Origin: a virus
DNA: 53,734 nucleotides
Reading direction: 5' to 3' (one strand)
IMG/VR virus record: IMGVR_UViG_3300003691_000007
Coordinates: 1-53,734 of that record
The notes below the pieces were generated by a model that worked only from the letters and a program-made list of their open reading frames with translations, searched no databases and had not been told where the DNA came from. Made by a program: the position numbers and the translations under genes. This document shows, one piece after another, positions 23,577 through 52,422 of the stretch. Positions within the stretch are counted from its first letter, which is position 1; the number at the start of each line of letters is the position of its first letter.

Positions 23577-23585
23577 CACTTCCTC

Positions 23586-31327: not shown

Positions 31328-34300
31328 TTATTTCTTTTTCTTCTTCTTCATTTTTTGCGCTCTTTCGAGAACGTCCATCATCTTGCTTTCAAGCCTCTTT
31401 TGCTCTTCCATCAGTTCTTCCTTGCTTATATCCTTTCTGTTATAGGCTCTCTCAGCTTTCCTTAACGCAGCTTTTATGGCTCGTTCGTTCTTTGATATAC
31501 CGTAAGCCCTAAACTCTCTCTGAAGCTCAATATTAAACCCAGCAGCTTTAATACCAAGTACACTTAGGACCGCGAGAGGTACGCTGTAAGTTCTACCAAG
31601 CATATCCTCCTTGCCCTTAGCCGCATTGATAAGTTTCTCCTGGGAATAAGAGTAAGGTATCCACGGAGCATTTGGAGACATAGATTTATAAAGGAATTTC
31701 ATTGATGATGATACTTTCTCTGCCACAGAGTCCATATCAGGGTCGTAGATATCCTTCCCGGTAAATACTTGTCTGTTTGCATACAGTTCAGCGCCAATTG
31801 CCAGCAACCCGCCTGGTATCATTGGTCCAGGTATGTAGCCTGAATCATGCTGATTCGTATCAAAGATATCACCAACAGGTATCCAGCGCCTAATATCAAG
31901 GTAAACAGGATCGCCATTGTTATCATCGAAAGGTGTTCTTATCATGCGCGGTACACCAATCCAGGTGTATCCACTCTGATGTTCTGGCATTACAGAGCGC
32001 TCTTCTTCTTCATCGCCAGGGTTAAGTAAGTAACCGGCCATACTTGCAACATACGCTAATGCAAAATACTTAGGTAACTTCCACGGTCTTTCAGCAAGAG
32101 CCTTTGCAACAACTGGAGCTGCACGATAAGAGTAAGCAATAAACGGCAAGAATGATCTTCGTGCCGCATTTACCCACGGTGCGCGAATGTCATAGTTAAG
32201 AAACTGTCTTCTAGCCATCGCAGCCGCTTCAACAGAAGAGTCTCCAAGTTCCTTACGCCTAATGTATGTAGCAAGCCTGAATATTTCATCCTCAAGCTGA
32301 TACATGTTTAGCATCTTATCGTCTGCTTTAGCTATCGCGCTAATAGCTACCTTAGCTGATCCTTTAGCCACGTTAGCGAGTTCACCCTTCAGTAATCCTT
32401 TTCGCAAGGTATTTAGTGCGCCTAATAAGCCTCCTTTACTCATAATATCATCAGAGTTTTGGCTGGTTATCTCTCTTAATATAGGATCAAGTATTTCCTT
32501 CTTAATTTCAGAGTTTACAAAACTTGAGCCAAAAGCATTATCATCTACCGCTTGTTGGTAGATATCAGATTTTTTCAGGTATGACTTTATTGCGTTCCTT
32601 AAATCACGCGCACGAATGTCGGCCATATCCATGAATATCAGGTTTGACATTACATTGTTTACATGGACCACTGGGTTCCTGGCAGTCTTATTTAGTTTCC
32701 ACTGAGTAAGTAGCCATTGCCATGATCCGTGTTGATTTACCTTATCAAGCTGGTTTAAGTCGCGCCAAACTTCTCCCTTTACATACATGCCGGCAAGTGA
32801 TCCCCACTTCTTAACGCCACCTGTTCCACTTATACTTGTGTTTGGTACTTTCACCCAATCTACACCGGCATAAGTTCCGGCCTTTGAGTTTCTTTTGTTG
32901 TCAGGGTCTACAGCATTACCGGGGTCTTGATGTGTGGCCCACTCTTTGTTTTCCGCAATTGTCTTAAAGAACCTACCATTTGCTATCTGTTCTGACATAA
33001 GCATGAAAGTCTTTGCAACGGTATATCTGGCATCTAGTATTTGCCCCATATCCTTTCGTTCAGCCTTTGTGTAGTCGCGCCACAAAGTTATCTTGTTACC
33101 CTTGGTCCAACGAGCCTCCCATTCTCCACGGCTTTCCCATGCGTCATACTTGGCTGGTATTTCCTGGTCTGCTGGGAGGTATACGCGCTCAAGCACTCTT
33201 CTTTTTTCAGGCCCACCTTCCTCAACACCTTCTATTGTTTCAGTTCCTTCGCCTACAGATTTCAACCGATCAAAGATTAAGAATTTTCTCCCGATGAAAG
33301 TTTCGTCAACCTTCCCTTTGCTTAACTTCTGCTCAAACCATCCTGGTACATTTTTAGCAAGCGTACCCATCTTAACCGAAAGCGTAAGCCCTCTTCCCTT
33401 TAGCATCCCATCAGACTTGCTTAGTCTTCTTTTTTCCATTCTCTTCAATATGAAGCTGGACACAGTTCCCGCGTTTTCTTCATGAGACTTATATACGCGG
33501 TGCATATACTGGCCTCTATTGCGCTCGTAGCTTTCCTCAGATATAAGTCCAAGATCAACCATTTCTCTGCCGTAGTTATCAATAGCAGCTATTATTGGAG
33601 TAGAAAAACCCTTTAGTCGTTCGCTTGTAAATGCGTTATCCGGGTCTTCTATCAAGTCATGCAGTAGTTTCGCCTCGTCAGAGCTTACTCCACGATCAAT
33701 CATATCTCTTACTACCTTCTCTCCTTCAAGTGCTATTCTACGTTGTTCAGCTCCCCTTTCCGCGTCCGCTGATACATACTCGTCAGACAATCCATGACGG
33801 TCAATAAGTCCAGCCCGGAAAACACCAAGTATATTATCCACAGTGGCATTTCCGGTCTTCTTGTTTTCAACTAGGTCTTCAGTCCACCCGTATGCTTTCA
33901 CTCCATGTTTAAATCTACCGTGGCTATCGAGCGTCTTTACTACACTAAAAGGATACCTAAACGCTTTATCCAAGTACTGGCCTTCATCCTTTTTGATTTT
34001 TTCAGTCTTATTTTCCTCGCTATCCTGCTTTCTTGAAAATGTCGGCTTATCAGATTGCGCGTTAGGTGCTTTTGGATTCTTACCGCCAGATACAACATGA
34101 CGTGAAGACTTAGCGATAATAGACTGCAATGAAGCCTCGTCCATCGATCCTATCCCATGTTTCGCAAGCCATAACCTTACTTTAGCAATAGCGCTTTTGA
34201 TAATTGGGTGCTTATGGTCACGCTCTGCCAGGTGAGCAAAAATTTCTCTCGCCTCTTGAGACTCTTCTAAATTGTACTCGCCAGTTTCATCATTAAGGTA

Positions 34301-37300
34301 GTTTTTCTTTATCCTCTCGATAACTGCCATTATCCGCTTGTTCTTAACCTTCTTTAGCGCCCTTATTTTTTTAAGAGAGTCCTCCAGGTTGCGCCCAAGT
34401 ACAGCCTCAATACCAGCATGACCAACAAGCTCATGAGCAAGTGTAGTTTTTAATTCTTCAGAAGTGTTTTGATCTGCAATTATATAAACATCACCTTTGA
34501 ATGAAGCGCCTTTGATATCACTAGGCGCGTCAAAAGGTAATTCAGACACAGATTGAAGCGCGTGTATTCTTATTCCTTCCGGGGCCTTATATTTGGCCTT
34601 AGCAATGTATTTCTCAACCTCCGCTTTAGTTACACCAGATACCTTTTCTCCGTCTTTCTTGAACAAAGCGCCAGTATCTCCACTGATTCCTTTAGGATCA
34701 TTATTTTCTGATTCTAATGAATCGAATGATTCAATAGCTTCATCCATTGGCTTACCACCAGCGTCTTCAAACTTACCTCTGTGGGTTCCTCTTAATCCCA
34801 TAGTCACAATTTCAGTTAGCCTTTTAATAGCCGCCTTAATTTTTCTAGGCTTAACAATTGCTGTCATTTGAGCGCCATTGCCGTAAAAATCGCCAACTAT
34901 ATCTCTTAATTCTGAGTCAAACTTTACAGCCCTTGCGTGTTTGTACTTTTGCGCCTTTGATACAGTAATAACAAAATCATCACCACTGTAACCCATTATC
35001 ACTTCCTTTGATTCGTGATAAGAAAGATCATAACGGCCACGGTTATCTTTGTGGTACTTGAGCAGCACATCAATGTCACGAACAATTATATGGTCCGTAG
35101 TAGTACTTGTATCGCCATCTTCATTAAAAGATGATGGAGTAAGTATTCCCTGGTGAGTTTTTCCTTTGTCATCGGTGAAGTTTACGATCCTTCCAGGTAG
35201 CTTTGCCAGGCCATTTATAATATTTCCAGTGGCAATGTACCTTGTTTCCCTTTTAATAGTTGCCTCTTCGGAGAATATTCCATCAACCCTTTGATCTAAT
35301 GTTTCATTAGGGTTTTTATATATCCCTGCATTAGTTGATACGGTAGAGTTAAATCCCAGTTTTGTAAGCGGTAAAGTTACACTGTAAACACCACTATTAA
35401 CCATGAAGCGCACAGATACCTTTGAGCGCGAATAAGGATTGCCTTTTCCGTTCTCATGCTTATCATTGACTGATACAACAATGCCTTTTGTTTGAGTTCC
35501 TTCTTCAAGCGTAAGATTAAATACTTCTCCAACACTGTACCTTTGTATCAATAACTTAGTTTCTTCGATCTCCTCTTTTGTCTCGCGCTCTCTTATCTCG
35601 GCTTTTTCTAGTGCGTCAGCGTGTGAGGAAAGCATCTTGTCGTAATTTTCTGATCCTTTCTTTGTGTTTTTGAATTTCTCATGGGTGTCACTTAACCTCG
35701 CGCTGGTTTCCTCCAGGTATGAAAGATATGATGTGTCGGTATCTTTCGTTGCAATAATTTGATCTGAAGTAAGAACCGATTTTTTGTTAAGCTCCTTCTT
35801 TACCTGGCTGGCTCTTGGTGGCTTGCCCTGATACTTTGAGTTTACTTTGTGTAAAGTAGTGTTCCCGCCAAAAATAGATGATGGGTCCTTACCTTGATAA
35901 ACCACCTTGCTTTCGATTATTCTCGCATCAAGGTCTAAGGTTTGAGCGATAAGATCATTTTGTCCTGTCTTGTTAAGATACTCTATAAGTTCGTTGTATT
36001 CTTTTTCAACGTCCTTATAGAATCTCTCCTGCTGCCTCCACGGTAGAACAGCAAGCCGGCCTGTAGCTTTTAGGGCAAAACCTGGCATCTCTGCCGCCTC
36101 TGCTGAAGAATTGCCTCTCATGTCAAGTTTTTCTGCTAATGCCTTATCTTCTGCAAGGTAACTACTCACCACGATATCACCATACTTATTCATGATATCT
36201 GCGGCTTCAATGCTTGTGTCTGATTCATCGTTCGCACTTGTATTAGCGTTCAATGAAGACAATTTTTTAGCGGTAACCGACATAGGTCTTTTTTCTGCCG
36301 GTAAATCAGTAGACATAAGAGTGTAGTTAGGTACAACCACTTGGCCAGTACGATTAACGCGGCCTAGCATTTGCACTAACGTATTAATATCCTGCATCGG
36401 CTGGATAACAACCATGTGTCTTTTGTTTTGATCTTTGAAGTTCTCACTCGCATGAGCGCTTAGTCCTGTAGCGCCAGCCGAGTTAAGCACAAGAGCATCA
36501 AGATTGCCATTGTTAAACTTATCAACGGTTCCTCTCTTGTTCTTACGTTCAACTGTGTTGCGTCTTGATACGACCGGAACATCGCCCGAGTAATCTATTG
36601 AGTAATCACGTCCGGTAATCTCACCAACATTGATACCCTCTTCGCTCAACTTGTATTTTATGTAGTCAATTGGGGAAATTGGTAGGTTGTCAGGTATTTT
36701 GGCTTTTAATATCTTAACCTTCGCTTCATCGTAATATTCCCTGGTGGTATCGTCCAGAGAATCAAGAGGAATAATAACCTTCTTTTTCTTGCCTCTCACG
36801 TCTACGTGAGTCATTACACGGGAACCATCCAGAGCTTTAAGAAGAATATCCTTATATGACGCTCTTATTTCATCACCAACAACCAGGTCATTGTCCTTTA
36901 TATAGTCGGCAAGGAACGATCCCATAGTGTTTTCGAGTGCTAATACTGGCTTTTCACCCTTTTTATATGATGCAATTGCCTTTTCAATAGCCTGGTCAAC
37001 TTTGATAGTTAGTAAAAATTGTCGTATATAGTTATGGATTATCGAGTTAAATCCAGCATGGTTTACTGTTGAAGATGATTTGTTTCCAGCACTGTACGCA
37101 CCACCACCTTCATCCTTTGCATTTTCGATATATATCTTAGCAAAGCCACTATGAAACATTCTATCGGCCTCCATGATGGCCTCTAGCCCTGAATTTACAT
37201 GGTCAGAAGTTTCTCTGTGATAGTCTCCATTCTCTACGTCAACAACCGTAGGTATTGATATTCCTTTAAGTGATCTCTCTCTCCGGAATAACTGACCGCT

Positions 37301-40300
37301 TTCAGTAAGCATGTTTGCTATTACTTGCTGAAGTGGTAGTCCTCCGCGCTGTATCGAATCAATTAAATCATCCGAATCATCTACAGAATCCATTATATCG
37401 GTCCTGTAGTATATCGGCATATTCTCAGCTCTCTTTGCGTAAGTAGCTGATAAGTACAACACCGGGGCATCCCTGATAACATCGTACATAAACCCTGCAC
37501 CATGTATCCGCTTGACACCCTTTACTATCGATTCTCTTTGACCGGATATGTTATGGGATTCGTCAAGAACAAAGAAAGCGTTATGCTTTAGGGCATTTAT
37601 TAGCTTTCTCTGCTTGTTATCTGTGGTTATCTGGCTGTAGGTCATGAAAAGCATGTCGTTTTCAGGCTCTAGGTATCCTGTCTCGATCATGCTATTTATC
37701 TTTTCTGTTCTCTTTTTGGTCTTAGGAACATTGCCATTTTTCTCACTTGCAATAACACTATTGTTATTCAGTAAGAATGGGGATATGTCACTTTCACCGA
37801 TATCATGTAAATCGTCATACATGTCGGTAAATAGATTTTCTTTTTCCGTGATGAATATTGGAGTTTTTCCAATTGCTTTAGCGTATCGGATAATACCAGC
37901 AGCCTGTCGGCCCTTACCAACACCTGTAGAGTCGGCAATGATTATTGCCTTGTTTTTCTCTTCGTTGTTATAGATTGAGGCAGCAATGGTATCTACCTGT
38001 AAGCCCATGAAAGCATTGAATAATTCCTCCTTACTATCATAACCTAGCTTACTCATAACATAATCATCCACTGACATTCCTATGTCTTTCTCCATCCTAT
38101 CAAGAGCAATTTCTATGGATTCAGCCATGTTTTTAGGTATTAAAACGTCTTCATTTTTACCTTTACTCTTTGATGGGTATGCAACCTGAAAGTCTGACGC
38201 ATTTACATCAGGCTCCTTTCCAGGCTTGCTATCAGGTTTTCCAGTGTTTGACTTTCTGCCAGAGTCTTTGTTGGGGCTACTGACGTTACTTCCTTTAGTC
38301 GAACCCGATCTATCAGGTCTGATAGTGGTCCCTCCGTCACCATTGCCCTTGCCATCGCTCCCGGCTTGTCCTGCGTCCCTATTGCCGCTGACATTCCCGG
38401 AACCCCCGCCAACATTGCTGCCGGATTTTCCACTTTTTCCATCATTTCCATTAGCTTGTCTACCATCATTTCCTTTAGTATCCAATCCTCTTCCGGGTCC
38501 GATTCCAGAATCAGTACCTCCGATTCGTCCTTCGTTAAGTCCTCGCTTTCTGGCATCCAATACTGCGTTGACGTGTTCATATATACTACTCCACTCAGTT
38601 AGTCTCTTAATTGTTCCGGCTTTCGGACCTATGCTTTCGGTCTTATTTCTACCTTCAATGGTAATAACTCTGATAGGCCATGCCGCGCCCTGTCTTGTGT
38701 ACAGCTTGCCATCAACTTCAAAGTGATCTGCCACATTGTAATTAGAGTATAGCCAGTTAAAAAATGTTCTATCGCCATTACTTTGAGCACCAGCAACTTT
38801 GTGTGCACCAATGATTAATGTAGCTTTACCATCATCCTTCATTGCCTCAAGAGACTTAATGACAATGGCATGATCTATCGATTCAATTTTATAGCCGTCT
38901 TCATCTATTGATTCGTTTCTGCCTTCACTGTTCTTTAGTTTTCCGAAAGGTGGATTCTGTATTACCGCATCAACCATGCCTTTTGGCTTGTACTTTGTCG
39001 CATCATTTTTCGTAACAGTGAAGCCCATATCTTCAAGGTTACTTGCCCTATCATCGTTCAACTCATTAACAATGCTGTTTTGGTCCGAACCGATTAACAA
39101 CATTCCATTACCTGCTGTTGGTTCGTAGACTTTAGTGCCTTTTTTGATTCCCGATAACTTGGAGGCGAGGTAGGCAATTGGCGCTGGTGTGCTATATGCC
39201 TGGTTCTCAATACTTGTCGAGGACCGCATGTTTAAAAGCGGTTGAGACTTGTATTGCTCCAATAGTGTTGAAAATGTACTTTCCAGTGTGCTTTCACCAC
39301 TAACGGTATTTCTGGCCTGTAAAACAAGAGCAACTTCAAATTGTTCCTGCGCGTCTTTTACCTGTTCAGCCGTTACTTCCTTAACATCAATGCCTTTATG
39401 TTCGGCATATTTCTTCTTCAGAGAATTGTTATCCTTTATTTCCTTTATGTTTTCGTAAAGGAAATCAGATAGCTTTATCCCTTTTTCTTCAGCCGATCCG
39501 TTGCTGGATTCGTTATCTTTATGCTCGTTAGCTTTTTCTTTCCGCTGTCCGTAACTCGGTCTAACCAACCCTCTAGGCTTTCCTTCCCGCGATCCGCGTA
39601 AGCCTGCTTTTTCGCGTCTTTCCTTTTCTGCTGCGAGTCCGCTGTCTGCCTGTTCATAAGTTTCTCCTGTCGCGTAAGTGAAGTCTGCACCTACCTTGTA
39701 AATTATCTCTCCCTCAAGGTTCGCTTCAATGACTGCCTCTTCAAGCAACTTCCTAGCTTTCTTGAGTGTTTCGTGTACGTCTTTTTCTGTGTCACCTTGT
39801 AGTATAAACTCGTCACCTGACTTGTGGTATACCCACTCAGACACATTGACAAGGGCATCAGCAACAACAATAAGAAGAGCATCGCCAGCTTCATGGCCCC
39901 CCATGTGATCGTTTACAGCTTTTAGGCCATCAACGTCTATGCTTACCTGGACCTTCTTCGGGTTCTCTTCGATATCCTTCTTGTACTGCAAGTAGTTTTT
40001 CAGGCCTGTTAGCGGGTGAGTGAAAGCAAGTTTGCGTAATGTCGCAATTTCTGCATCCTTTTCGTCTTCATCAAGACTGTCTACTTCTTCACGTTTCTTT
40101 TCATCTACTCGCTTATCGGCTGAATCAAGACTGTCTAGCGCATCCATTCCTGAATTATCAAACTCAGGATGAAAGTAAACCATTGAATAAAGAGACTTCA
40201 AGTAAGGCTCTATCACATCGCCCAGGTCGCTAATCATTGCTTTACTGAACGCAGTAAACTTTCTTGCTCCTGATTCAATGTGTCCACCGGCAACCACCGA

Positions 40301-43300
40301 GGCAAGTTGCATTGTCTCAAAATCAAGCCCGGCATTTAGATTTGCCAGCTTTTTAATGAGTTCTGCCCGGGCAGCGGCCACCTTATCTTCGGTGAATAGC
40401 TTATTTCCGGCCATTTTCCCTGGCTTTTCTGGGCTATCCGCTTTAGTTTCTTCCGGCTTTTGTTCTTTCGGTGCTATGAGCACACTTTTTTCATCGGTCT
40501 TATCTGTCTGTTCTGCCGGACTTTCATTTTGTTGCTGTTCGTTACGGTGAATCCTGTCTGCATTAGTGATCCATACCTTAAATTCATCCTCCTGGAACGT
40601 CTGAATACCTCTTGCGTTACTCTTTCCCGCCTCAAAACTTCCTTCATACGCGGCAATTGCTTCAGAGCGAGAGTAGTAATTCATCATTACCTTATGTTCA
40701 TCAAATTCATCATTGCTATCATGCTGAGATATTACATAGATTTCTTTTGAATCAGGGTAATCACCAACAAACACGTCCATATCATCGCCATCAGCACCGC
40801 GATATCCTTTAAGGTCCCCGTAATGCGCGTCCGATGGCATAGTGATTGACCACTTTTTACCGCTTTCATCGGTTCCTGATCTTGTTGCACCGGCTGGAGT
40901 TTCAATTGCAATGTTAAAACCGTGGATCGCTATCCGGCCCTTCTTGTAGTTATCTGCCTGTATTTGGCTCTCAGTAGGGCTTACATTGGTTTCGTTCGCA
41001 GCTTTATTAATAGCCTTGTTTTCTTTCTTACGGCTTACATCGGCTGCTTTCTTATCCTTTTTCTTACCTTCAAGATGCTTTCTAACCTCACCAATGAAGT
41101 TAGATATTGATTTTGAAGTTGCTTTTCCTGCCTTGATATCTCTTGCCGCAGCACTCAGCGCATCGGAAACTTCGCCTTTTGAGTTAGCCAGCTTTGAAAC
41201 TATGGATATTATTTCATCATCCTTAGTCATTTGTGTTTTGTTGGCATCGGTATCTAGTTGGTTTCCACCGATGTTTGATATATCGCTGTCATTATCAACA
41301 AGCATTGTTACTATTCGCTTGTTTCCTTTGATCTTTTTGAGTGCACCATCAAGAACAACGGCTCTTTCTTTAAATAGGCTCTCTGTTATCTCAACGTCAC
41401 CAAACAAACCACCCTGCTCAGTCCTGGTATCAAAACCCGCAGCGTTAGCCTGGTCGATAATCATTTCAGCTTGGCGCTTGTTGGCCGGCTTAGTCTTTGC
41501 AAGCAAGTCAATTATGCTTGATTGTTCCGCATCACCCTCGACCTTATCACCAACCAAAGATGCAAAACCTTCAGGGATTATTTTATTAACCGCCATTTGG
41601 AAAGCATTGTCACCAAGTTTAGTAAGCCCCCTCGCATCTTTTATCAATTGGCCGCTTTTTGGTAGAGCCTCGACCATATCACCCATTGTTTCATCGTTCG
41701 GATCAACATCACGTAGAACCTTAGCTCCATCAAGTGCTGTTCCTGATCCTTCGGCAATATTCTTGAACGCTGCTAGGCCACGAGCCTGAACATCGCTAAT
41801 ACCATCGCTTTCCTTCCATACAAGTGAAGGTATCTTTATTCCGTCTTGGGTTCCTTCGTCCATAAGCCTGTTAGCAAGACCGAATCTCTGATGGCCATCG
41901 GCCACAAAGTCCTGACCGCTTTCGTCCTGCCAAACTGCCGAAACACCAGCAAGATTATCATCCCACTTTTCAACACCTTTAAGCCTATCGGTCACGCCTT
42001 GAGAATCGCCACCTTCTTTAAACTGGAATCTTTCAGCATCAACCTGGGTTTCTCTTGGGTCAACATCAACATGCCGGCTTTCACCAGGACCGGAGATAGG
42101 TTGATCCTCAGATACATCAATAGAGCCTTCTTGCGTATAATCAACTGGCGCTTCAACGTCAGGCGCAACAGCATCAGGCGCTTGCATTTGCTCGTCTGTT
42201 AAAGGAATCATACTTCCCGCAGCAAACAAGTCTATGGCTCCAAGGCTGTCTTGGTTATATATAACTCGTGTTGGCATAGTTTGGCCATCAGGAGTGTTTG
42301 TACCTAAGTTTATAGGTGGAGGCGCACCGCCAGGGTTATCACCTGGTTCATCTTCTGGAGGCAATCCAAGTAAAACACCGGCATCATCACCAGGCCCGTT
42401 AGGTCCAGGCGGGTTATTTGGATCATCGGGATCATTTGGTCCATTAGGACCTGATGGATCGTTAGGATCGTATGGTTTTTTACTTGCTCTTGAACTAGCA
42501 ATAGCACCGGCAACGTCAGCGGGCATTGTTATTAACTCAAGCAGTCCCTCAGCAACAAGCTCTTCAAATTTTATTTCCTCGCCCATTGTGTATGCAGCAA
42601 GAGCTTCACCACCCATCCCTCCCATCACCTGGAAAGCGGATTGAACAGATACATTTACAACTTGGTTTCCAATTTTTAGAGGCACGAACCCTGCCGTCAG
42701 TCCATCAACACTTGCCTGGGCCAATGATCTTGTGAACGCTCTGAATGACGCTTCATCTATTCCGTAACCTTCCTCAAGTTGAGCTATGGTGTTACTACCC
42801 AATGTTTGAGCCATGCTTGAAACAGCACCACCCGCAGCACTACCCAGCACCTTACCACCAACTCCTGTTACTACTTTACCTACCGCTCCACCAGTTAATG
42901 GAGTTAAAGCCATTGGTATTGCTTGTTCTGCCGCTACCTCAGTTAAGAATCCTGTGGTGTCTGGAGAATCCCAAGCCTCCTTTATGAAAGCCCCCATAGC
43001 TTTAGGGGCAGCCGTCCACCCTTCGGTTTCATCGTAGGTTTTCTTTGTTCTTTCGAGCGCTCTTGCCATTGTAGGGTGATTCGGTATATCTCCTTTTTTA
43101 TCTTTCACCCAGTTAAGAGCTTTCAGCCTAAGATCGTCTTTCCACCCTTCAATATCATACCCTAGCGCCTCGCCCGCAGCGTTGATTGCTCTTGGTAATG
43201 GCATTATAGAGTCAGCAATTTTATCCATTGTTACCGCTGTTGACATGGCAGTAAGCCCGCCTTTTTTTGTTGCGCCCACACCACCGCCACCAGCGGCCTC

Positions 43301-43495
43301 ATGGTCAACTATCTCCCTTTCTTTATCTACATCAGTTGACCTAGTTTTAAACTGATCCCAAGCATAATCAAACTGATCTTCAGTTACTTTTGGCGCTATA
43401 TTGGTATTAAAATAATGCTCTCTTACCTTTTCTTGATCTCCTAAATCTAGTGATTTGTATCTTTCAGAGTCAGAGACTTCATTCCACTTTATCAT
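31328..43495 (-). CDS. Giant polyvalent protein: ParB-like, PPase-like, GGDEF, N6-methylase, Sno helicase, zincin-like
   Basis: 4055 residues, over a fifth of the genome. In order: a start resembling ejection proteins with a Gly-rich possibly membrane-interacting stretch (about 200-240) and a Pro/Asn linker (340-395); a ParB/sulfiredoxin-like domain (about 470-570, VADGHQRFG); a pyrophosphatase-like domain (850-980, IAIHGFNIAIETPAG...DMDVFVGD); a DarB-associated helical segment (1030-1105); a GGDEF-like domain (1155-1305, HPLTGLKN, DVDGLKAVND, GGHEAGD, SGDEF); an N6-adenine methylase (1415-1620, EPTAGNGM, NPPFGKL); a Gly-rich linker; a Strawberry-notch helicase (1790-2480, TGVGKGR, DESHN, GRVNRTGQ); an HELVGHAG metallopeptidase-like domain near 3020; and an LPD38-like C-terminal region. 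Known relatives such as P1 DarB travel in the virion and block host restriction. It follows the ejection genes, so virion delivery is likely. Confidence 0.93.
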   Translation of the reverse strand: MIKWNEVSDSERYKSLDLGDQEKVREHYFNTNIAPKVTEDQFDYAWDQFKTRSTDVDKEREIVDHEAAGGGGVGATKKGGLTAMSTAVTMDKIADSIMPLPRAINAAGEALGYDIEGWKDDLRLKALNWVKDKKGDIPNHPTMARALERTKKTYDETEGWTAAPKAMGAFIKEAWDSPDTTGFLTEVAAEQAIPMALTPLTGGAVGKVVTGVGGKVLGSAAGGAVSSMAQTLGSNTIAQLEEGYGIDEASFRAFTRSLAQASVDGLTAGFVPLKIGNQVVNVSVQSAFQVMGGMGGEALAAYTMGEEIKFEELVAEGLLELITMPADVAGAIASSRASKKPYDPNDPSGPNGPNDPDDPNNPPGPNGPGDDAGVLLGLPPEDEPGDNPGGAPPPINLGTNTPDGQTMPTRVIYNQDSLGAIDLFAAGSMIPLTDEQMQAPDAVAPDVEAPVDYTQEGSIDVSEDQPISGPGESRHVDVDPRETQVDAERFQFKEGGDSQGVTDRLKGVEKWDDNLAGVSAVWQDESGQDFVADGHQRFGLANRLMDEGTQDGIKIPSLVWKESDGISDVQARGLAAFKNIAEGSGTALDGAKVLRDVDPNDETMGDMVEALPKSGQLIKDARGLTKLGDNAFQMAVNKIIPEGFASLVGDKVEGDAEQSSIIDLLAKTKPANKRQAEMIIDQANAAGFDTRTEQGGLFGDVEITESLFKERAVVLDGALKKIKGNKRIVTMLVDNDSDISNIGGNQLDTDANKTQMTKDDEIISIVSKLANSKGEVSDALSAAARDIKAGKATSKSISNFIGEVRKHLEGKKKDKKAADVSRKKENKAINKAANETNVSPTESQIQADNYKKGRIAIHGFNIAIETPAGATRSGTDESGKKWSITMPSDAHYGDLKGYRGADGDDMDVFVGDYPDSKEIYVISQHDSNDEFDEHKVMMNYYSRSEAIAAYEGSFEAGKSNARGIQTFQEDEFKVWITNADRIHRNEQQQNESPAEQTDKTDEKSVLIAPKEQKPEETKADSPEKPGKMAGNKLFTEDKVAAARAELIKKLANLNAGLDFETMQLASVVAGGHIESGARKFTAFSKAMISDLGDVIEPYLKSLYSMVYFHPEFDNSGMDALDSLDSADKRVDEKKREEVDSLDEDEKDAEIATLRKLAFTHPLTGLKNYLQYKKDIEENPKKVQVSIDVDGLKAVNDHMGGHEAGDALLIVVADALVNVSEWVYHKSGDEFILQGDTEKDVHETLKKARKLLEEAVIEANLEGEIIYKVGADFTYATGETYEQADSGLAAEKERREKAGLRGSREGKPRGLVRPSYGQRKEKANEHKDNESSNGSAEEKGIKLSDFLYENIKEIKDNNSLKKKYAEHKGIDVKEVTAEQVKDAQEQFEVALVLQARNTVSGESTLESTFSTLLEQYKSQPLLNMRSSTSIENQAYSTPAPIAYLASKLSGIKKGTKVYEPTAGNGMLLIGSDQNSIVNELNDDRASNLEDMGFTVTKNDATKYKPKGMVDAVIQNPPFGKLKNSEGRNESIDEDGYKIESIDHAIVIKSLEAMKDDGKATLIIGAHKVAGAQSNGDRTFFNWLYSNYNVADHFEVDGKLYTRQGAAWPIRVITIEGRNKTESIGPKAGTIKRLTEWSSIYEHVNAVLDARKRGLNEGRIGGTDSGIGPGRGLDTKGNDGRQANGNDGKSGKSGSNVGGGSGNVSGNRDAGQAGSDGKGNGDGGTTIRPDRSGSTKGSNVSSPNKDSGRKSNTGKPDSKPGKEPDVNASDFQVAYPSKSKGKNEDVLIPKNMAESIEIALDRMEKDIGMSVDDYVMSKLGYDSKEELFNAFMGLQVDTIAASIYNNEEKNKAIIIADSTGVGKGRQAAGIIRYAKAIGKTPIFITEKENLFTDMYDDLHDIGESDISPFLLNNNSVIASEKNGNVPKTKKRTEKINSMIETGYLEPENDMLFMTYSQITTDNKQRKLINALKHNAFFVLDESHNISGQRESIVKGVKRIHGAGFMYDVIRDAPVLYLSATYAKRAENMPIYYRTDIMDSVDDSDDLIDSIQRGGLPLQQVIANMLTESGQLFRRERSLKGISIPTVVDVENGDYHRETSDHVNSGLEAIMEADRMFHSGFAKIYIENAKDEGGGAYSAGNKSSSTVNHAGFNSIIHNYIRQFLLTIKVDQAIEKAIASYKKGEKPVLALENTMGSFLADYIKDNDLVVGDEIRASYKDILLKALDGSRVMTHVDVRGKKKKVIIPLDSLDDTTREYYDEAKVKILKAKIPDNLPISPIDYIKYKLSEEGINVGEITGRDYSIDYSGDVPVVSRRNTVERKNKRGTVDKFNNGNLDALVLNSAGATGLSAHASENFKDQNKRHMVVIQPMQDINTLVQMLGRVNRTGQVVVPNYTLMSTDLPAEKRPMSVTAKKLSSLNANTSANDESDTSIEAADIMNKYGDIVVSSYLAEDKALAEKLDMRGNSSAEAAEMPGFALKATGRLAVLPWRQQERFYKDVEKEYNELIEYLNKTGQNDLIAQTLDLDARIIESKVVYQGKDPSSIFGGNTTLHKVNSKYQGKPPRASQVKKELNKKSVLTSDQIIATKDTDTSYLSYLEETSARLSDTHEKFKNTKKGSENYDKMLSSHADALEKAEIRERETKEEIEETKLLIQRYSVGEVFNLTLEEGTQTKGIVVSVNDKHENGKGNPYSRSKVSVRFMVNSGVYSVTLPLTKLGFNSTVSTNAGIYKNPNETLDQRVDGIFSEEATIKRETRYIATGNIINGLAKLPGRIVNFTDDKGKTHQGILTPSSFNEDGDTSTTTDHIIVRDIDVLLKYHKDNRGRYDLSYHESKEVIMGYSGDDFVITVSKAQKYKHARAVKFDSELRDIVGDFYGNGAQMTAIVKPRKIKAAIKRLTEIVTMGLRGTHRGKFEDAGGKPMDEAIESFDSLESENNDPKGISGDTGALFKKDGEKVSGVTKAEVEKYIAKAKYKAPEGIRIHALQSVSELPFDAPSDIKGASFKGDVYIIADQNTSEELKTTLAHELVGHAGIEAVLGRNLEDSLKKIRALKKVKNKRIMAVIERIKKNYLNDETGEYNLEESQEAREIFAHLAERDHKHPIIKSAIAKVRLWLAKHGIGSMDEASLQSIIAKSSRHVVSGGKNPKAPNAQSDKPTFSRKQDSEENKTEKIKKDEGQYLDKAFRYPFSVVKTLDSHGRFKHGVKAYGWTEDLVENKKTGNATVDNILGVFRAGLIDRHGLSDEYVSADAERGAEQRRIALEGEKVVRDMIDRGVSSDEAKLLHDLIEDPDNAFTSERLKGFSTPIIAAIDNYGREMVDLGLISEESYERNRGQYMHRVYKSHEENAGTVSSFILKRMEKRRLSKSDGMLKGRGLTLSVKMGTLAKNVPGWFEQKLSKGKVDETFIGRKFLIFDRLKSVGEGTETIEGVEEGGPEKRRVLERVYLPADQEIPAKYDAWESRGEWEARWTKGNKITLWRDYTKAERKDMGQILDARYTVAKTFMLMSEQIANGRFFKTIAENKEWATHQDPGNAVDPDNKRNSKAGTYAGVDWVKVPNTSISGTGGVKKWGSLAGMYVKGEVWRDLNQLDKVNQHGSWQWLLTQWKLNKTARNPVVHVNNVMSNLIFMDMADIRARDLRNAIKSYLKKSDIYQQAVDDNAFGSSFVNSEIKKEILDPILREITSQNSDDIMSKGGLLGALNTLRKGLLKGELANVAKGSAKVAISAIAKADDKMLNMYQLEDEIFRLATYIRRKELGDSSVEAAAMARRQFLNYDIRAPWVNAARRSFLPFIAYSYRAAPVVAKALAERPWKLPKYFALAYVASMAGYLLNPGDEEEERSVMPEHQSGYTWIGVPRMIRTPFDDNNGDPVYLDIRRWIPVGDIFDTNQHDSGYIPGPMIPGGLLAIGAELYANRQVFTGKDIYDPDMDSVAEKVSSSMKFLYKSMSPNAPWIPYSYSQEKLINAAKGKEDMLGRTYSVPLAVLSVLGIKAAGFNIELQREFRAYGISKNERAIKAALRKAERAYNRKDISKEELMEEQKRLESKMMDVLERAQKMKKKKKK

Positions 43496-43510: not shown

Positions 43511-44947
43511 TTAATTAAACGCGCCATTAATAAAATCGTCAACTTCTACTTTACTTGCGGTCGGCTTGCCCGCAGCAACTCCACCCACCTTCTCTTCTAC
43601 TTGCGGTGGGTTTTCACGGACTATCGCCCCGCCTTGTTGCTGTTGCTGAGGTTGAGGTTGTCGCTCTTGCCCTTGCTGCTGGCCGGCAATTTCCATCATT
43701 ATCCCGAAATACTGTTTTGCAAGTTTTTCAGTCTCTTCCTTAGTAAGCCCACCAAATATACTTTTACCGCTAGATACCGCTAACGACATTGATTTTTGAG
43801 CTAGTTTCTGCCTTATCTCTTTAGGGTTTGTTCCTTTCTTATAGCTCTCTGCTTCAATTGCCATTTGCCTTGCTGTTTTCCGGTCAAGTCCTGGCGTTGA
43901 ATCCATTAAAGACTGCTCCAAAAATTGAATATTTTTCATCTGGGCAGTATCTCCGGCTTTGTGCTTTCCATAAGCACCATCCAAAACCTTTGACATTGTG
44001 TTAGGTCTAAACATAAGAAAGCCCATATCCTTATCGCCATCGCCATAAAACATTTCGTCAAAGGTTGTTTGTATTTTCTTACCCGATGGATCGGTAACAG
44101 TCCACGTACCATCCCCATTATCAACCGGCATCTCAAAATTAAGGCCATCAGGAACATAATCCCGATGATATTCAAACATCGGTATCAGAGATTTAGTTTG
44201 TACGGATTCAGCATAGGTTTCATCCCACGCTTTCGTCATAACAGCGTCTTGCTCCTTCCTTGTTCCTGCCATCCACTCCCTCTCTGTTTGGGCCGCATTA
44301 GACTCATGGACCTGCTGACGATAATTGTTGTTTTTTTCCTGGTGCTCAATCAGGTCTTCAGCGTTTTTTGTCTGATATGTTGTGTGCAGAGTTGCAAGGT
44401 AGTTCTCACCATCCTGGTTCTCTAAGCTATGCTCTGACTTCTTTTGATCGTAATCAGTTTTATTTCTTTCTATCGCTTGTTCTTGCGACTGCTGCGACCA
44501 ATCTTCATTTTTTTGATCTAAGTCGATCTGATTCCCTACCGTTGCAATTTCATTTACTACTGGTTGTTGATTAAGGTCATGAGCGCTCTTCCCGGCTGCG
44601 AGGTTTGCTTGATCTACTGCTGCTGGATTATTTATATCTCTCAATGCGTTCTTTTGTGCGATATCTCCAGGCGAGTTATTAAGGTTATTCGTCTGATCTG
44701 CAATACTCACTTGGCTTTTCAGTTGCGCCAATTCCTCAGTAAGCATCCTGTTTTGCTGAATTATATCTGCCGCCTCCAGGTCTTCCTCTTGACCACGCAA
44801 AAGCGCCTGACGATTCCCCTCACGGACCGGGGCATTGTCGTTGTATTCATCTTCCTTAAGCTGCGCTCTTCTTCTTCGCTCCAATCTATCCTGCGAATCC
44901 TGAAAGCCTTTTATTGCGCCTCTTGCTGCGCCACCTGTACCATAAGC
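43511..44947 (-). CDS. Internal virion / ejection protein
   Basis: 478 residues from the ATG at 44947 (strong GGAGGAGG upstream); a longer frame would start inside the previous gene. The start (MAYGTGGAARGAIKGFQDSQ) resembles P22/LUZ24-type ejection proteins. Long helical, Asp/Gln/Lys-rich stretches follow (LEAADIIQQNRMLTEELAQL), and the C-terminus is Gln/Pro-rich (QERQPQPQQQQQGGAIVREN). Probably ejected with the DNA. It lies between a smaller ejection-type protein and the giant polyvalent protein, matching the usual three-gene ejection set. Confidence 0.7.
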   Translation of the reverse strand, partial: AYGTGGAARGAIKGFQDSQDRLERRRRAQLKEDEYNDNAPVREGNRQALLRGQEEDLEAADIIQQNRMLTEELAQLKSQVSIADQTNNLNNSPGDIAQKNALRDINNPAAVDQANLAAGKSAHDLNQQPVVNEIATVGNQIDLDQKNEDWSQQSQEQAIERNKTDYDQKKSEHSLENQDGENYLATLHTTYQTKNAEDLIEHQEKNNNYRQQVHESNAAQTEREWMAGTRKEQDAVMTKAWDETYAESVQTKSLIPMFEYHRDYVPDGLNFEMPVDNGDGTWTVTDPSGKKIQTTFDEMFYGDGDKDMGFLMFRPNTMSKVLDGAYGKHKAGDTAQMKNIQFLEQSLMDSTPGLDRKTARQMAIEAESYKKGTNPKEIRQKLAQKSMSLAVSSGKSIFGGLTKEETEKLAKQYFGIMMEIAGQQQGQERQPQPQQQQQGGAIVRENPPQVEEKVGGVAAGKPTASKVEVDDFINGAFN

Positions 44948-44954
44948 CATTATA

Positions 44955-45707
44955 TTAACCTCCTCCAAACAAAACATCGTCTGACATTGCGTCAGTGTTC
45001 ACACTTGTTGATCCAGCGCTCGTGCTAGATGATCCGCTACTAAACATGTTATCCCAATCAAAACCACCGGCAATATTTCCTAGAGTTTCACCCCATGCGG
45101 CAGAATCGTTAGCGTTCCGTCCTGTTTGTTGCATTTGAGTAGAAGACACGCCATTTAATGTGCTCCCTGCTCCAGCCAGCAAGCTACCAGAGTTAGAATA
45201 AAGAGTGTTTGCATTACTCATTATTCCACTACCTATTCTCGAGGCTCCAAGTTTCTTATCAAAATTAAGCCTCTCGGTTTCAGCCCGGCCTTTATTCATG
45301 TTTCCAACAAGAGATAATGCCTTGCCTTGTTTGTTTTTACGAGTAGCCTCTTGGCTCATTCCATCGTATGAAGACACGCCTCTACGCTGTAACGCTCTAC
45401 GCTGCTGGTCTTCAGAGCTATCAAACGCATTAGAGTTGTCTCGCGCTATTGCGGTGAAGTCGGTTTTATCGTCCTCCATCGCATCACGAGCAATAGCTTG
45501 GTTTATTGGTGCAAAGTCTCTGTTGTATTGATCGTATTGCTCGTCACCTCTAGTCCTCATATCGCTGGACATTGACTCTTGTTGAGTTGCAATATTCTCT
45601 CGCCCGGCTTGAATCCTGGCTTGCTCTGCTGCGTCTGCCTTTGCTTGTTTTCTTGCTTTGCTACCGCTGAACAAGCTAACCGCGCCACCTATTAAAGCAC
45701 CCCACAT
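44955..45707 (-). CDS. Small internal virion / ejection protein
   Basis: 250 residues. The N-terminus (MWGALIGGAVSLFSGSKARK) is a Gly-Ala hydrophobic segment followed by Lys/Ala-rich coiled coil (KQAKADAAEQARIQAGRENI). The middle is Asp/Gln-rich and the end is Ser/Gly-rich low complexity (MFSSGSSSTSAGSTSVNTDA). This plan matches P22 gp7-like and T7 gp14-like ejection proteins that help form the channel across the envelope. AGGAGAAATACC precedes the ATG. Confidence 0.7.
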   Translation of the reverse strand: MWGALIGGAVSLFSGSKARKQAKADAAEQARIQAGRENIATQQESMSSDMRTRGDEQYDQYNRDFAPINQAIARDAMEDDKTDFTAIARDNSNAFDSSEDQQRRALQRRGVSSYDGMSQEATRKNKQGKALSLVGNMNKGRAETERLNFDKKLGASRIGSGIMSNANTLYSNSGSLLAGAGSTLNGVSSTQMQQTGRNANDSAAWGETLGNIAGGFDWDNMFSSGSSSTSAGSTSVNTDAMSDDVLFGGG

Positions 45708-45717
45708 GGTATTTCTC

Positions 45718-47622
45718 CTATGCTCCTAATGGAACAGTTGTTTGCATCATAAAAAAAGTTTGTTTAGCTATCGACCAATTAAGAACACTTGGCGAACCAT
45801 CAAGATTAAGAGGTCTAACAAGTCGTGCTGTAGCCCTTATTGTTCCGCTCCCCGCTGAAACCATTATAACCGGAGTTGCTGTAGCTCTGTTTAATGATGG
45901 TCTTATCTGCTCAACCCACACAACTGAGTTATCAACAAGAATTTCCAATCTATATGCGCTGAGTTGGTTGTCGTTCTTGCTTACAACTACGCAGCACACA
46001 ATAGCTACTTGAGTAGTTGTTATTCCTGGGGGTAATTTTACATCAAAAGAGCCAGTACCAGAAGGAACCGTAAGTTGGCCAGAAGGTAGGCTCAAAGTAC
46101 CGCCAAAAAATGCGTGTCCATTGTTATCCACGTAGAATGTGGAGTTTGACTTGCTTGGTGATTCAGTCGATGGGCCACACCATAAGCCGAAACCACCGCC
46201 ACCAATTTGCACTGTTTTTTCATCGGTCCTGAATCGTCCTGCTCCAGTAACAAACAAGTTACCAGCAAGTCTTAATGTTCCGTTCTGCTCAAAATAGAAT
46301 ACGCTATCACTTCCACCTATTGAGTTTTTACCGAACCATATAGGGTATTGGCCGCTATTTGAGTTAATGCCTGATATCACTACCCTGTATTGGCCGGCAG
46401 CATCGCTTGTAGCAATGGTATTTCCTATAACTCTGTTTGCCTCAAGAAGTCCGGTCCATACTGAATTTGCGTTAATCTGGTCTGCACCAATAGTCTGAGC
46501 CTGGATTGAATTAGCCGTAATTGTTCCATCGACAACTAACGCACCATTAATGCCAACAGTTGAAACACCTCCAACGGTTGAAACAATGAAAGGGATGATC
46601 GATGAACCATCTTCATCAACAATAGGCGATGCAACGGCAAAATTTTCTGCTCGGACCACAAAGGAAGATGATGTGGAAATGTTTTGCCCTGTATATGGGT
46701 TTAACGTCACCAAGGAGGATATGCCAAAACCTACAACGTATCCATTTGTATCAAGCCTTACCGAATATTCACTACCAAACTCTGTACCCGGTCGATTCAC
46801 ACCAATACTTGCATTTTGGCTTATAGCGGCATAAATATCTGTAGCCGTCTTCACTTGAGCCAGGTTAATCCTGCTTTGAACGCATGTAGAGTAAATTATG
46901 TTAGGATTATCAGGATCGCAATCAACCAGGTCTATCCGGTCGTTAAGCGACTTAAATATCTGACTTTCTGTTATTTGGCCCTCTAAAACATCAAGAACAT
47001 ACTCAGGATCATTTGCGGTTGTACCGTGTATTCCTATTGATCCCTCGTTAGGCGTAAACAATCCTATTTCTGTTTCATCGTCTATCGTAAAGCCTACCCA
47101 TCTTATCCAATACCACCTTTCACCCTGACCTTGCTCATGATCGTCACCAGGCCGATAAAGCCCAACACCAGTATGAGTAAAAAAGCTACCAGGTGAGGTT
47201 CCTATCGATACTGCATCTACAAAATTTGGCGTGGTTGATGCGTATACCTCAGTGTATGCAAACTGTCCTGTCTGCGGCCAATCCCACAATATGCGGATAC
47301 CATCCCATAAGGATAAGGTTCTTACGTTCTGATGTGAATCTGGTATCTCTGTGTCAGAAAAATCCGGTGGAGTTAAAAAGCCACCACCAGGATCACCGCC
47401 AACTTCAGGAGGAAGGATAACACCGGAACCACCGGACGGATCATAAGTAGCTAATCCACCATCTTTCAGATCACGAAAAGACACAAAGCTATCTAAATGC
47501 TCACCAGTTATACCGAAAGCCTGGTCCAATCTTTCCTTTGTTGCGTTAAACACCCGACCAACGACACCGGACTCATTAACTTTAGGAATAGATTGTATCT
47601 GCTGCTTTCTCACCTTAGACAT
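45718..47622 (-). CDS. Tail fibre / receptor-binding protein
   Basis: 634 residues. After a helical start (NESGVVGRVFNATKERLDQA), the first half has fibronectin-like strands (LSLWDGIRILWDWPQTGQFA; ERWYWIRWVGFTIDDETEIG). The centre has DUF1983/lambda J-type fibre segments (VDGTITANSIQAQTIGADQI; NANSVWTGLLEANRVIGNTI). A beta-rich C-terminus may be the tip (FYFEQNGTLRLAGNLFVTGA). It is probably the main fibre contacting the host. It overlaps the upstream gene by 8 nt. Confidence 0.75.
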   Translation of the reverse strand: MSKVRKQQIQSIPKVNESGVVGRVFNATKERLDQAFGITGEHLDSFVSFRDLKDGGLATYDPSGGSGVILPPEVGGDPGGGFLTPPDFSDTEIPDSHQNVRTLSLWDGIRILWDWPQTGQFAYTEVYASTTPNFVDAVSIGTSPGSFFTHTGVGLYRPGDDHEQGQGERWYWIRWVGFTIDDETEIGLFTPNEGSIGIHGTTANDPEYVLDVLEGQITESQIFKSLNDRIDLVDCDPDNPNIIYSTCVQSRINLAQVKTATDIYAAISQNASIGVNRPGTEFGSEYSVRLDTNGYVVGFGISSLVTLNPYTGQNISTSSSFVVRAENFAVASPIVDEDGSSIIPFIVSTVGGVSTVGINGALVVDGTITANSIQAQTIGADQINANSVWTGLLEANRVIGNTIATSDAAGQYRVVISGINSNSGQYPIWFGKNSIGGSDSVFYFEQNGTLRLAGNLFVTGAGRFRTDEKTVQIGGGGFGLWCGPSTESPSKSNSTFYVDNNGHAFFGGTLSLPSGQLTVPSGTGSFDVKLPPGITTTQVAIVCCVVVSKNDNQLSAYRLEILVDNSVVWVEQIRPSLNRATATPVIMVSAGSGTIRATARLVRPLNLDGSPSVLNWSIAKQTFFMMQTTVPLGA

Positions 47623-49651
47623 TTGATAGCCCCTTCAATTCTTCCACTGTCTCGGCTATGTGTATTCCTTGAAGCTCGACATTACCGTATACCTCAATAG
47701 ATACATCATTATATTGACCTGGAGGAAGTCTGAATATGCCTAGTCTTTCTGAATAGCTTGTCCCACTAAATGTTTTGGCGAAAATAGTTTCTGTGTTAGC
47801 GGTTCCAACTTTTTTTACTCTTAGGTATAAAGCAAATTTATACCCACTTACACCCACGCCATCACCATCTACAGAGTAAGGAGTTCTGTCTATAAATACC
47901 TCGGCAGCGCCAAACGACACCTGCCTTGAGAAAGAAAATGTTTTAGATACCCATTGATATTGTTTCGGCACTCCATAGCCAGTATCAAACTTCATTATGT
48001 CCGTTGGCGTGTTGTAAAATTTGCTCGATAGATACAAGATACCATCATCACTTACGTCAACCGTACCATCTATCCTTGCGTCAAGAAGGTATCCGTATAT
48101 AAGATGACCATTTTCCGGCTCATACTTCGTTATAACTAGGCCTTTATCTTCCTGATACTCAAATATTGTTGTCCCTATTGGTGTTGAAAGAAAGTATTTC
48201 CCATCATAAAAGGTGGCCGCTACTGCATTTGCAGCATAACTAGACACCCAATCACGCCTAGATATGTAGCTCTTTGTGACATTTCTTGACCCGTTGTTAG
48301 AAACAAGCTCAAGACCATAGTTTGATACAAAAAATACCCCGCTACCGGCTGAAACCATCGATCTTTTATAAAGACATATACCGGCCCCCTCAATCTTATC
48401 GTAGCTAAAACTCTCAGGATCAGCACCAGAGCCGACATAAGTAGCTGTTTTCGTACAGATAACAAGGTTATAACCGTATTGAGCTATGCCGGTAATGGGC
48501 GAATCAAGTCTTTTCTTGTATATCTCAGGCCAGGCATAAGGAACATCGGGCACAGAGAAACATAATTCATTGCGTGAAAAGCCAACCATAAAGCCATTAG
48601 GCATTAACAGTAAGCCGTCAAGGTCAGGCTCAGGAAGATTCCAATCATTAGATGGCAGTATCTCGCCTATGGATGCGGCATCAACACCATCAGTAAAAAC
48701 AGCTTGAGAGGCATTTATCTCACCGACAAAATACAAATCAGCGCCAGAATCACCGGAAAATGACCTGTAAATCCTTTTCTTTGTCCAGTTAAATGTACCT
48801 GTCAGTCCGTCAACCGTTTTAGACATTGATGGGCTTGTTGCTGTAGTTACACTAACGATAGAGCCATCACCAACATCAACAACTAGCGATACATCAGATG
48901 GCGCAGACTCTTCACCCCAATCAGTTACGTTTGTTGATACATAAACCCTAGATTTTATCTCAGACTCTTTATACACCCTTTTCCATGATCCAGAAGATGA
49001 TGTAGATATTATCTCTGTATCATTAAGAGTGAAGGAAGATGCGTCAACCTTAGTTATTGTGTACTCACCACCATCAAGATTTTCAATTGAAGTGTTTGAT
49101 ACAGATACTCTATTGCCGGTAGATAGGCCGTGAGGGAATACGCTGTTTACTATAGCAACACCACTGTCAGCACTAATGGAAACTGATGATATGATGTTAT
49201 CAGGAAGTTCAGCCACAACAGCCAACGGAACAGAAGTAGGCGCTGGTACGCCAAGTTCTCTGACATTTGTTGGCCATGTGTTGTGTCCTGACGTTGATGC
49301 AGCAAGAGCCCTGTTTGTAACTTTTGGCCATCCTGTAGTGAAGTGAGGAGATGCTTTATAGCTCACCTTATTCATCGAGAAGTATATTCTCTCGCTTTCA
49401 TCATCAGGAACCGGACCGCCAGTTATATCAGCATCAAGATCAAAAAGAATTGTGGCTCCATCATTGAACCTATGAAAAGAATACACGGGTGCTGTGTGAG
49501 GAGTAGACAATTCAAGTAATTCAGGACGGTACGACCGAACATCACCATCCTCTATCTTTGTGTTTACCGCTTTCGTGGCCTCGGCATTAGACAGTTTTTT
49601 ATTATTCTGTATTGGTCTTATCCCGGAAAACCTATCTATCTTTATGTGCAT
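47615..49651 (-). CDS. Large tail protein (nozzle/stabilisation type)
   Basis: 678 residues from the ATG at 49651 with AAGG eight bases upstream; the GTG at 49660 is less likely. It is strand-rich throughout with no Cys-rich or coiled-coil zones. Recurring blade-like segments (VYSFHRFNDGATILFDLDAD; GDSGADLYFVGEINASQAVF; RDWVSSYAANAVAATFYDGK; YFLSTPIGTTIFEYQ) suggest a beta propeller, as in podovirus nozzle or tail-tube proteins. Its place between adaptors and the fibre gene fits the tail nozzle. Family not certain. Confidence 0.65.
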   Translation of the reverse strand: MHIKIDRFSGIRPIQNNKKLSNAEATKAVNTKIEDGDVRSYRPELLELSTPHTAPVYSFHRFNDGATILFDLDADITGGPVPDDESERIYFSMNKVSYKASPHFTTGWPKVTNRALAASTSGHNTWPTNVRELGVPAPTSVPLAVVAELPDNIISSVSISADSGVAIVNSVFPHGLSTGNRVSVSNTSIENLDGGEYTITKVDASSFTLNDTEIISTSSSGSWKRVYKESEIKSRVYVSTNVTDWGEESAPSDVSLVVDVGDGSIVSVTTATSPSMSKTVDGLTGTFNWTKKRIYRSFSGDSGADLYFVGEINASQAVFTDGVDAASIGEILPSNDWNLPEPDLDGLLLMPNGFMVGFSRNELCFSVPDVPYAWPEIYKKRLDSPITGIAQYGYNLVICTKTATYVGSGADPESFSYDKIEGAGICLYKRSMVSAGSGVFFVSNYGLELVSNNGSRNVTKSYISRRDWVSSYAANAVAATFYDGKYFLSTPIGTTIFEYQEDKGLVITKYEPENGHLIYGYLLDARIDGTVDVSDDGILYLSSKFYNTPTDIMKFDTGYGVPKQYQWVSKTFSFSRQVSFGAAEVFIDRTPYSVDGDGVGVSGYKFALYLRVKKVGTANTETIFAKTFSGTSYSERLGIFRLPPGQYNDVSIEVYGNVELQGIHIAETVEELKGLSNV

Positions 49652-49802
49652 CCTGTTCACCTTCTTTTATAAGGTTGTTATTTATAATCTTTATCGCTTC
49701 ATTAATCGCACCAATCATCGGCTCTTTTGCCGACTGCGGCAATGTTTGAACAAAATCTTGTGATACGTTGGCGATTAACTGTATTGCTTCATCTAAATTC
49801 AT
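49632..49802 (-). CDS. Small helical tail-module protein (56 residues)
   Basis: Starts MNLDEAIQLIANVSQDFVQT and ends KEGEQDAHKDR. The ATG overlaps the upstream stop (ATGA) and the 3' end overlaps the next gene by 20 nt. Almost wholly helical, no Cys. The gene is real by its exact coupling at both ends; its job in tail assembly is unknown. Confidence 0.6.
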   Translation of the reverse strand: MNLDEAIQLIANVSQDFVQTLPQSAKEPMIGAINEAIKIINNNLIKEGEQDAHKDR

Positions 49803-52410: not shown

Positions 52411-52422
52411 TTTGTGTATCTC

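Follow-up and report, generated by a model that had tools for sequence, protein, structure and literature searches.

The window analysed here is a whole IMG/VR virus record (IMGVR_UViG_3300003691_000007) of 53,734 bases from a podophage-like virus, and it carries a giant gene that starts with ATG and runs for 4055 codons without an internal stop, as checked in the ORF and its translation (Table 1). The gene takes up 12168 of the 53734 bases, or 22.6% of the genome, and the initial annotation of this DNA, which described one gene of 4055 residues making up 23% of the genome, was correct in this respect. That annotation had also placed the gene at the end of a series of ejection proteins. It is indeed the final gene of a leftward late operon and sits among virion morphogenesis genes, but the genes preceding it encode head, tail and unknown proteins. 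The 488-aa upstream gene was considered as a conserved partner and rejected, as no homologue of it adjoins the giants of relatives.

Despite the absence of terminal repeats at the ends of the 53.7 kb window, late-gene order continues over them, with the major head protein at 587-1495 and head and structural proteins at 52000-53714; the genome therefore looks circularly permuted, near-complete and cut within the head-gene block. A nucleotide search with the first 25 kb of the window against phage records gave no match. Elsewhere in the window, four direct repeats of about 21 nt (TGTACCGTTTTCGGTACTGGT) with an inner palindrome lie at 25809-25903, within a lambda-O-like replication protein gene, and are likely an iteron origin. 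A homing-endonuclease-like ORF is found at 23142-23579 (PADLOC HEase 3.5e-9), and a 1014-aa protein encoded close to the terminase genes (7995-11039) has no PHROG match. Positions 29478-30299 encode a DUF2303 protein; the DUF2303 protein gp10 of phage JC1 was detected in virions by mass spectrometry (PMC9144972).

Table 1. The giant gene, the parts of its product and the late genes upstream of it, in window coordinates.
Feature	Residues	Window position	Strand	Basis or remark
Giant polyvalent protein gene	4055 aa	31328..43495	(-)	Single ORF; homologous giants in 80 viral contigs
N-terminal region	1-340	42476..43495	(-)	Without family match
ParB/Noc-like module	475-830	41006..42073	(-)	AlphaFold model; Foldseek and VIA matches to ParB, Noc, PadC
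InPase domain	843-976	40568..40969	(-)	Pfam PF18823, 1.4e-41
Conserved module of about 86 aa	1031-1116	40148..40405	(-)	Common to BcepIL02, PEp14, Parlo and many polyvalents
GGDEF domain	1140-1300	39596..40078	(-)	Pfam 1.4e-7 (1161-1294); DosC/WspR matches; 72 viral relatives
N6-adenine DNA methyltransferase (MTase)	1373-1641	38573..39379	(-)	PF02384, 9.5e-6
Gly/Ser/Asp-rich MTase-helicase linker	1650-1765	38201..38548	(-)	Read from translation
Strawberry-notch type SF2 helicase/translocase	1770-2509	35969..38188	(-)	PF13872, PF13871
Two conserved post-helicase regions	2510-2887	34835..35968	(-)	In 81/89 and 80/89 proteins compared
Zincin metallopeptidase-like domain	2960-3140	34076..34618	(-)	Motif conservation; confident part of model
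C-terminal tail	3165-4055	31331..34003	(-)	Module homology at 3590-3840; lysine run at end
Upstream late genes: 488-aa; 250-aa; 634-aa tail-fibre-like; 681-aa head-closure/internal-virion-like (relative of BcepIL02 gp63)		43511..49660	(-)	

The N-terminal region of the protein gave no Pfam match above the cut-off and no phage match; residues 1-139 are weakly common to a few relatives, and a Pro/Gly/Asn/Asp-rich linker follows the region, reaching about residue 400. The ParB-like module was missed by Pfam. An AlphaFold model of residues 470-835 (mean pLDDT 73), built with five relatives in the alignment, had Noc and ParB as its top Foldseek matches (E 2.5e-5), and VIA gave Z scores of 8.7 to ParB, 8.2 to PadC (rmsd 3.1 over 96 residues) and 6.3 to sulfiredoxin. 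The module consists of a ParB N-domain (DGHQR at 533), a helical DNA-binding-like domain and further helices. The helices after the N-domain reached a VIA Z of 5.6 to the Noc DNA-binding domain, and in the model the module seems to include the ParB-type helical domain. Homologues of the module occur in the relatives L009-L012 and L014 and in Ruegeria phage 45A6, a phage not found to carry the Strawberry-notch core. The InPase domain has the acidic motif DGDDMDVFVG; it also has a match in a phage portal of solved structure (9b41), at the portal's C-terminal part. In three relatives (L060, L061 and L063) the InPase was matched as two separate stretches, for example residues 257-296 and 343-464 of L060, possibly reflecting an insertion within the domain.

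The GGDEF domain carries its box as SGDEF at 1226 and the motif DVDGLKAVND at 1187, and the cyclase residues D1187, N1195, D1205 and G1227-D1228-E1229 are all present. The RxxD inhibitory site is absent both from this domain and from its viral subfamily. The window copy is atypical in having one extra residue after 1196 and a Tyr at 1168, a position occupied by Arg or Lys in most relatives; because of these two features, the predicted cyclase activity is less sure for this copy than for its relatives.

The core of the protein is a methyltransferase followed by a helicase. The N6_Mtase score in Table 1 was obtained by scanning the pre-helicase segment alone; the motifs are STP, EPTAGNG and NPPF (at 1514), the last of which is kept in 126 of 128 homologues. 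The helicase has both Strawberry-notch Pfam domains between residues 1845 and 2509 (Helicase_C_4, 3.8e-23; AAA_34, 3.6e-20), together with Walker A, DExH and motif VI, which places it in the Strawberry-notch family. Its motifs GVGKGR (1858), DESH (1978) and GRVNRTGQ (2378) are made of residues kept in 11 relatives. Solved structures matching the profile of the MTase-helicase core were not found, and PADLOC recognised only a generic MTase.

All six domain types listed in the initial annotation (ParB/sulfiredoxin, InPase, GGDEF, MTase, Strawberry-notch and zincin) were thus recovered, with one correction: the zincin motif, given there as HExxH, is actually HExxxH (HELVGH at 3021). H3021, E3022, H3026 and E3084 are conserved. 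The HExxxH form occurs in 32 of 35 homologous stretches and HExxH in two (BcepIL02 and Parlo), while 34 of 36 rows retain Glu 3084. A clade of polyvalent metallopeptidases with HEXXXH, in which a Glu of the following helix supplies the third ligand, was recognised by Iyer et al. (PMC5512222). Structure prediction by segment, suggested earlier as a check on the domain assignments, bore out the ParB/Noc fold (Z 8.7) and gave moderate support for the zincin fold, whose confident part has several zincins among its structural neighbours (Z 5-6), but the model of residues 2950-4055 (mean pLDDT 51) was unusable beyond the zincin. Foldseek with this model, which is unreliable past the zincin, returned nothing significant.

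Within the C-terminal tail, residues 3590-3840 are a diverged copy of a module found near the C-terminus in about 60 giants, and a lysine run (KKMKKKKKK..., window 31331-31360) closes the protein. In BcepIL02 and Ruegeria phage 45A6, LPD38 directly follows the shared C-terminal module. The final 215 residues of the giant protein are weakly collinear with the LPD38 region, and the segment before LPD38 is homologous; whole-protein and segment scans gave no Pfam match to any LPD module. A membrane channel formed by TM-like segments was also considered and rejected, the hydrophobic peaks at 1204-1224 and 3969-3992 being weak. No capsid-targeting signal was recognisable in the giant protein.

Relatives were collected with an alignment of the core as query, which was required since viral contigs scanned with one sequence at a time, of the core or of the C-terminus, returned nothing. 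In viral contigs the alignment matched 170 relatives and in bacterial genomes 304, and 80 of each were kept. The 63 complete viral relatives have a median length of 3963 aa, 27 of them being 4055 aa or longer, and the giant gene has a median share of 22% in 27 contigs longer than 45 kb. The size of the giant protein is ordinary for its kin. The argument that 12 kb spent on one protein implies strong selection therefore adds little, as about 4 kaa and about 22% of the contig are the family norm; selection is better attested by the conserved catalytic residues. The same data bear on whether the gene is partly decaying baggage, with some domains dead and its length a matter of drift. The private N-terminus and the extra residue and Tyr 1168 of the GGDEF domain would suit such decay, but the 4055 open codons, the intact catalytic motifs of the MTase, helicase, InPase, GGDEF and zincin domains and a length typical of the family all argue against it, and we regard it as very improbable.

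Across the family, the MTase, the helicase and the two post-helicase regions travel as a unit, while the InPase, ParB, GGDEF, zincin and 86-aa modules are variable. On a helicase tree (FastTree, 54 helicases), the numbers of rows and changes were 13 and 11 for the InPase, 16 and 9 for the zincin, 3 and 3 for ParB and 2 and 2 for GGDEF, with some absences unreal because the proteins are cut by contig ends. Such turnover of accessory modules around a fixed core is as expected for arms-race cargo. The exact domain set and order of the giant protein were absent from the other proteins sampled. Its nearest row on the helicase tree, L010 (IMG/VR 3300032040_000017), likewise has ParB, GGDEF, MTase, Strawberry-notch helicase and zincin; in L010, however, the GGDEF domain stands before the 86-aa module, whereas in the window protein it stands after it, and L010 has an ART domain and no InPase match. 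Bacteroides phage BS-TP4 has the same core in a protein of 5391 aa. Bacterial genomes, mostly of Bacteroidota, carry the core too, in shorter genes, and head packaging is therefore not essential to the core.

The giant protein falls into a class already described, the polyvalent proteins of Iyer et al. 2017, as its single chain unites at least two enzymatic domains that are unrelated to each other. Its Pfam domains and late-gene position bear out the earlier description of a polyvalent multidomain protein with an MTase followed by an SF2 helicase. All of its domain types are described among the polyvalents of Iyer et al. (PMC5512222), where the Strawberry-notch helicase is reported in 'a few instances' and a protein of an Acetonema prophage joins GGDEF, a SWI2/SNF2 ATPase, adenine MTase, zincin and ART. 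The window protein differs from those polyvalents in its private N-terminus and strongly diverged C-terminal tail.

The Bcep22-like podophages have a DarB-like protein of 4.5-4.9 kaa at the same place in the late operon, taking up about 20% of the genome and likewise carrying an MTase and an SF2 helicase. Synteny with BcepIL02 extends to relatives of gp53, gp55, gp57 and gp63 in the window, and BcepIL02 has the C-terminal tail module in common with the window protein. BLASTP against the BcepIL02, PEp14 and Parlo proteins matched only the region of the 86-aa module (38-44% identity) and, weakly, the MTase in PEp14 and Parlo. However, BcepIL02 gp70, JC1 gp69 and the PEp14 and Parlo proteins have an SLT transglycosylase N-terminus that the window protein lacks, and BcepIL02 and PEp14 match SNF2-related helicases, whereas the window protein has a Strawberry-notch helicase, an InPase and a GGDEF domain.

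The label 'DarB-type' given in the initial annotation holds for the order of the domains, as in P1 DarB an N6-adenine MTase precedes an SF2 helicase (the window protein having TP and NPP[YF] in its adenine MTase), and virion carriage is a feature of DarB. It does not hold further: P1 DarB has 2255 aa, a helicase that is SNF2-related and not Strawberry-notch, and none of the accessory domains of the window protein, and BLASTP between the two found no similarity. The window protein is DarB-like in domain order and does not appear to be a close relative of DarB.

We propose, with a probability of roughly two in three, that a podophage-like virus makes the giant protein late as polyvalent cargo, which is probably packed into the head and ejected with the DNA, protecting the latter as it enters. 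Packaging in the head as internal cargo and ejection with the DNA are suggested by the gene position, the virion counterparts in JC1 and P1, phage N4 and the InPase-bearing portal. The JC1 counterpart, gp69, has 4515 aa, takes up 22.1% of its genome and was identified by 51 unique peptides in virions purified on CsCl (PMC9144972). A signal at the N-terminus directs P1 DarB into the capsid (PMC9024508), and in N4 encapsidation depends on the C-terminal region of the injected RNA polymerase, the part that bears a zincin (PMC5512222). The earlier suggestion of virion cargo is thus plausible from the late-gene position and the syntenic JC1 counterpart. The protein might instead work late inside the infected cell, for example by modifying progeny DNA or excluding rival phages, and not be injected. 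Its place at the end of the late operon would fit this, and no sequence feature proves packaging, but the detection of the JC1 counterpart in virions by mass spectrometry and the portal to which a relative of the InPase belongs make an exclusively intracellular role quite improbable.

Once ejected as cargo, the MTase-helicase core may run along the incoming double-stranded DNA, methylating adenines or displacing proteins ahead of any attack by restriction enzymes or other defences that sense DNA. DarB and the type I/III enzymes suggest such a protective role for translocation and adenine methylation; P1 DarB acts in cis to shield DNA against type I enzymes (PMC5512222), virion defence being demonstrated for P1 DarB and not for the Strawberry-notch subfamily. 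The same parts could be read differently, as a machine primarily for ejection and entry in which the chain and tail move the genome in, the helicase pulls the DNA and antirestriction is secondary. We consider this unlikely. It would draw on the late position, on an SF2 translocase acting on entering DNA and on a tail module that is common to about 60 giants with differing enzyme sets, as would suit delivery by the tail, but the core also occurs in shorter proteins of bacterial genomes, and the tail, whose model is too poor to judge, has no fold match to a known ejection protein.

In a defensive cargo, nucleotide and DNA would be the ligands of the ParB-like module, and the targets of the InPase and GGDEF domains may be the host nucleotide pool or the nucleotide signals of immunity, as suggested by the proposals of Iyer et al. 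and by the current picture of cyclic-nucleotide immunity, e.g. Panoptes (PMC12657218). The zincin may process the giant chain or a host target; processing of multidomain chains by polyvalent metallopeptidases was proposed by Iyer et al. (PMC5512222). Packaging or exit may be the role of the C-terminal tail, which is more widely shared than any other end module. If this polyvalent reading is true, the phage injects several enzymes as one chain, and delivery and counter-defence become experimentally separable, the family itself separating a fixed part (the MTase-helicase core and, in many members, the C-terminal tail) from exchangeable cargo.

The GGDEF domain is the least explored part of the giant protein and is common to many phage giants. 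Iyer et al. termed it 'not very widespread' in polyvalents (PMC5512222), and here one scan of viral contigs, made with three query sequences and two peptide patterns, found 72 loci with the subfamily. The domain lies inside ORFs of more than 1000 aa at 62 of the 72, a proportion that may lean towards giants as two of the three queries came from giants. As a control on the patterns, all 39 loci found only by the first box carry G-D-E in the second, and the 6 loci found only by the second box keep D, D and N. Among 59 non-redundant sequences, D1187, N1195, G1204, G1227, D1228 and E1229 are invariant, and D1205 is present in 53. The near-invariant catalytic residues, the missing product-inhibition site and the recurrence in different architectures led us to a tentative and rather doubtful suggestion, drawn from sequence comparison, that phages carry a dedicated clade of GGDEF cyclases. 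Mostly part of giant and probably virion-delivered proteins, and in some phages encoded next to an antirestriction gene, these would make a cyclic dinucleotide around entry, blunting or misleading nucleotide-signalled immunity or resetting host physiology. This clade is the testable new point to come from the analysis of the giant protein.

The InPase was also considered as a dedicated partner of the GGDEF domain. The two occur in the same ORF at 16 of the 72 GGDEF loci, many ORFs being cut by the end of the fetched stretch, and are separated by about 100 residues or less in 11 of these 16; the InPase is present in 30 of about 130 core-set proteins. As there is no clear excess of co-occurrence, the link is only suggestive and the partnership was not retained.

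A phage search placed GGDEF relatives in 51 records, with Yuavirus and Bordetella siphophages among the carriers. The stand-alone GGDEF proteins of Yuavirus and Vojvodinavirus (PMC8471281) belong to the same subfamily, the window copy being about 34% identical to that of the Yuavirus PaSz-4; the PaSz-4 domain, however, is a separate 156-aa gene, whereas that of the window is part of a giant chain. In PaSz-4 the stand-alone GGDEF gene is followed by an antirestriction gene (L089, 9004-9979; Pfam PF03230), and by annotation the two genes stand in the same order in NEU2024 and Churro (L246 and L247), making three Pseudomonas phage genomes examined.
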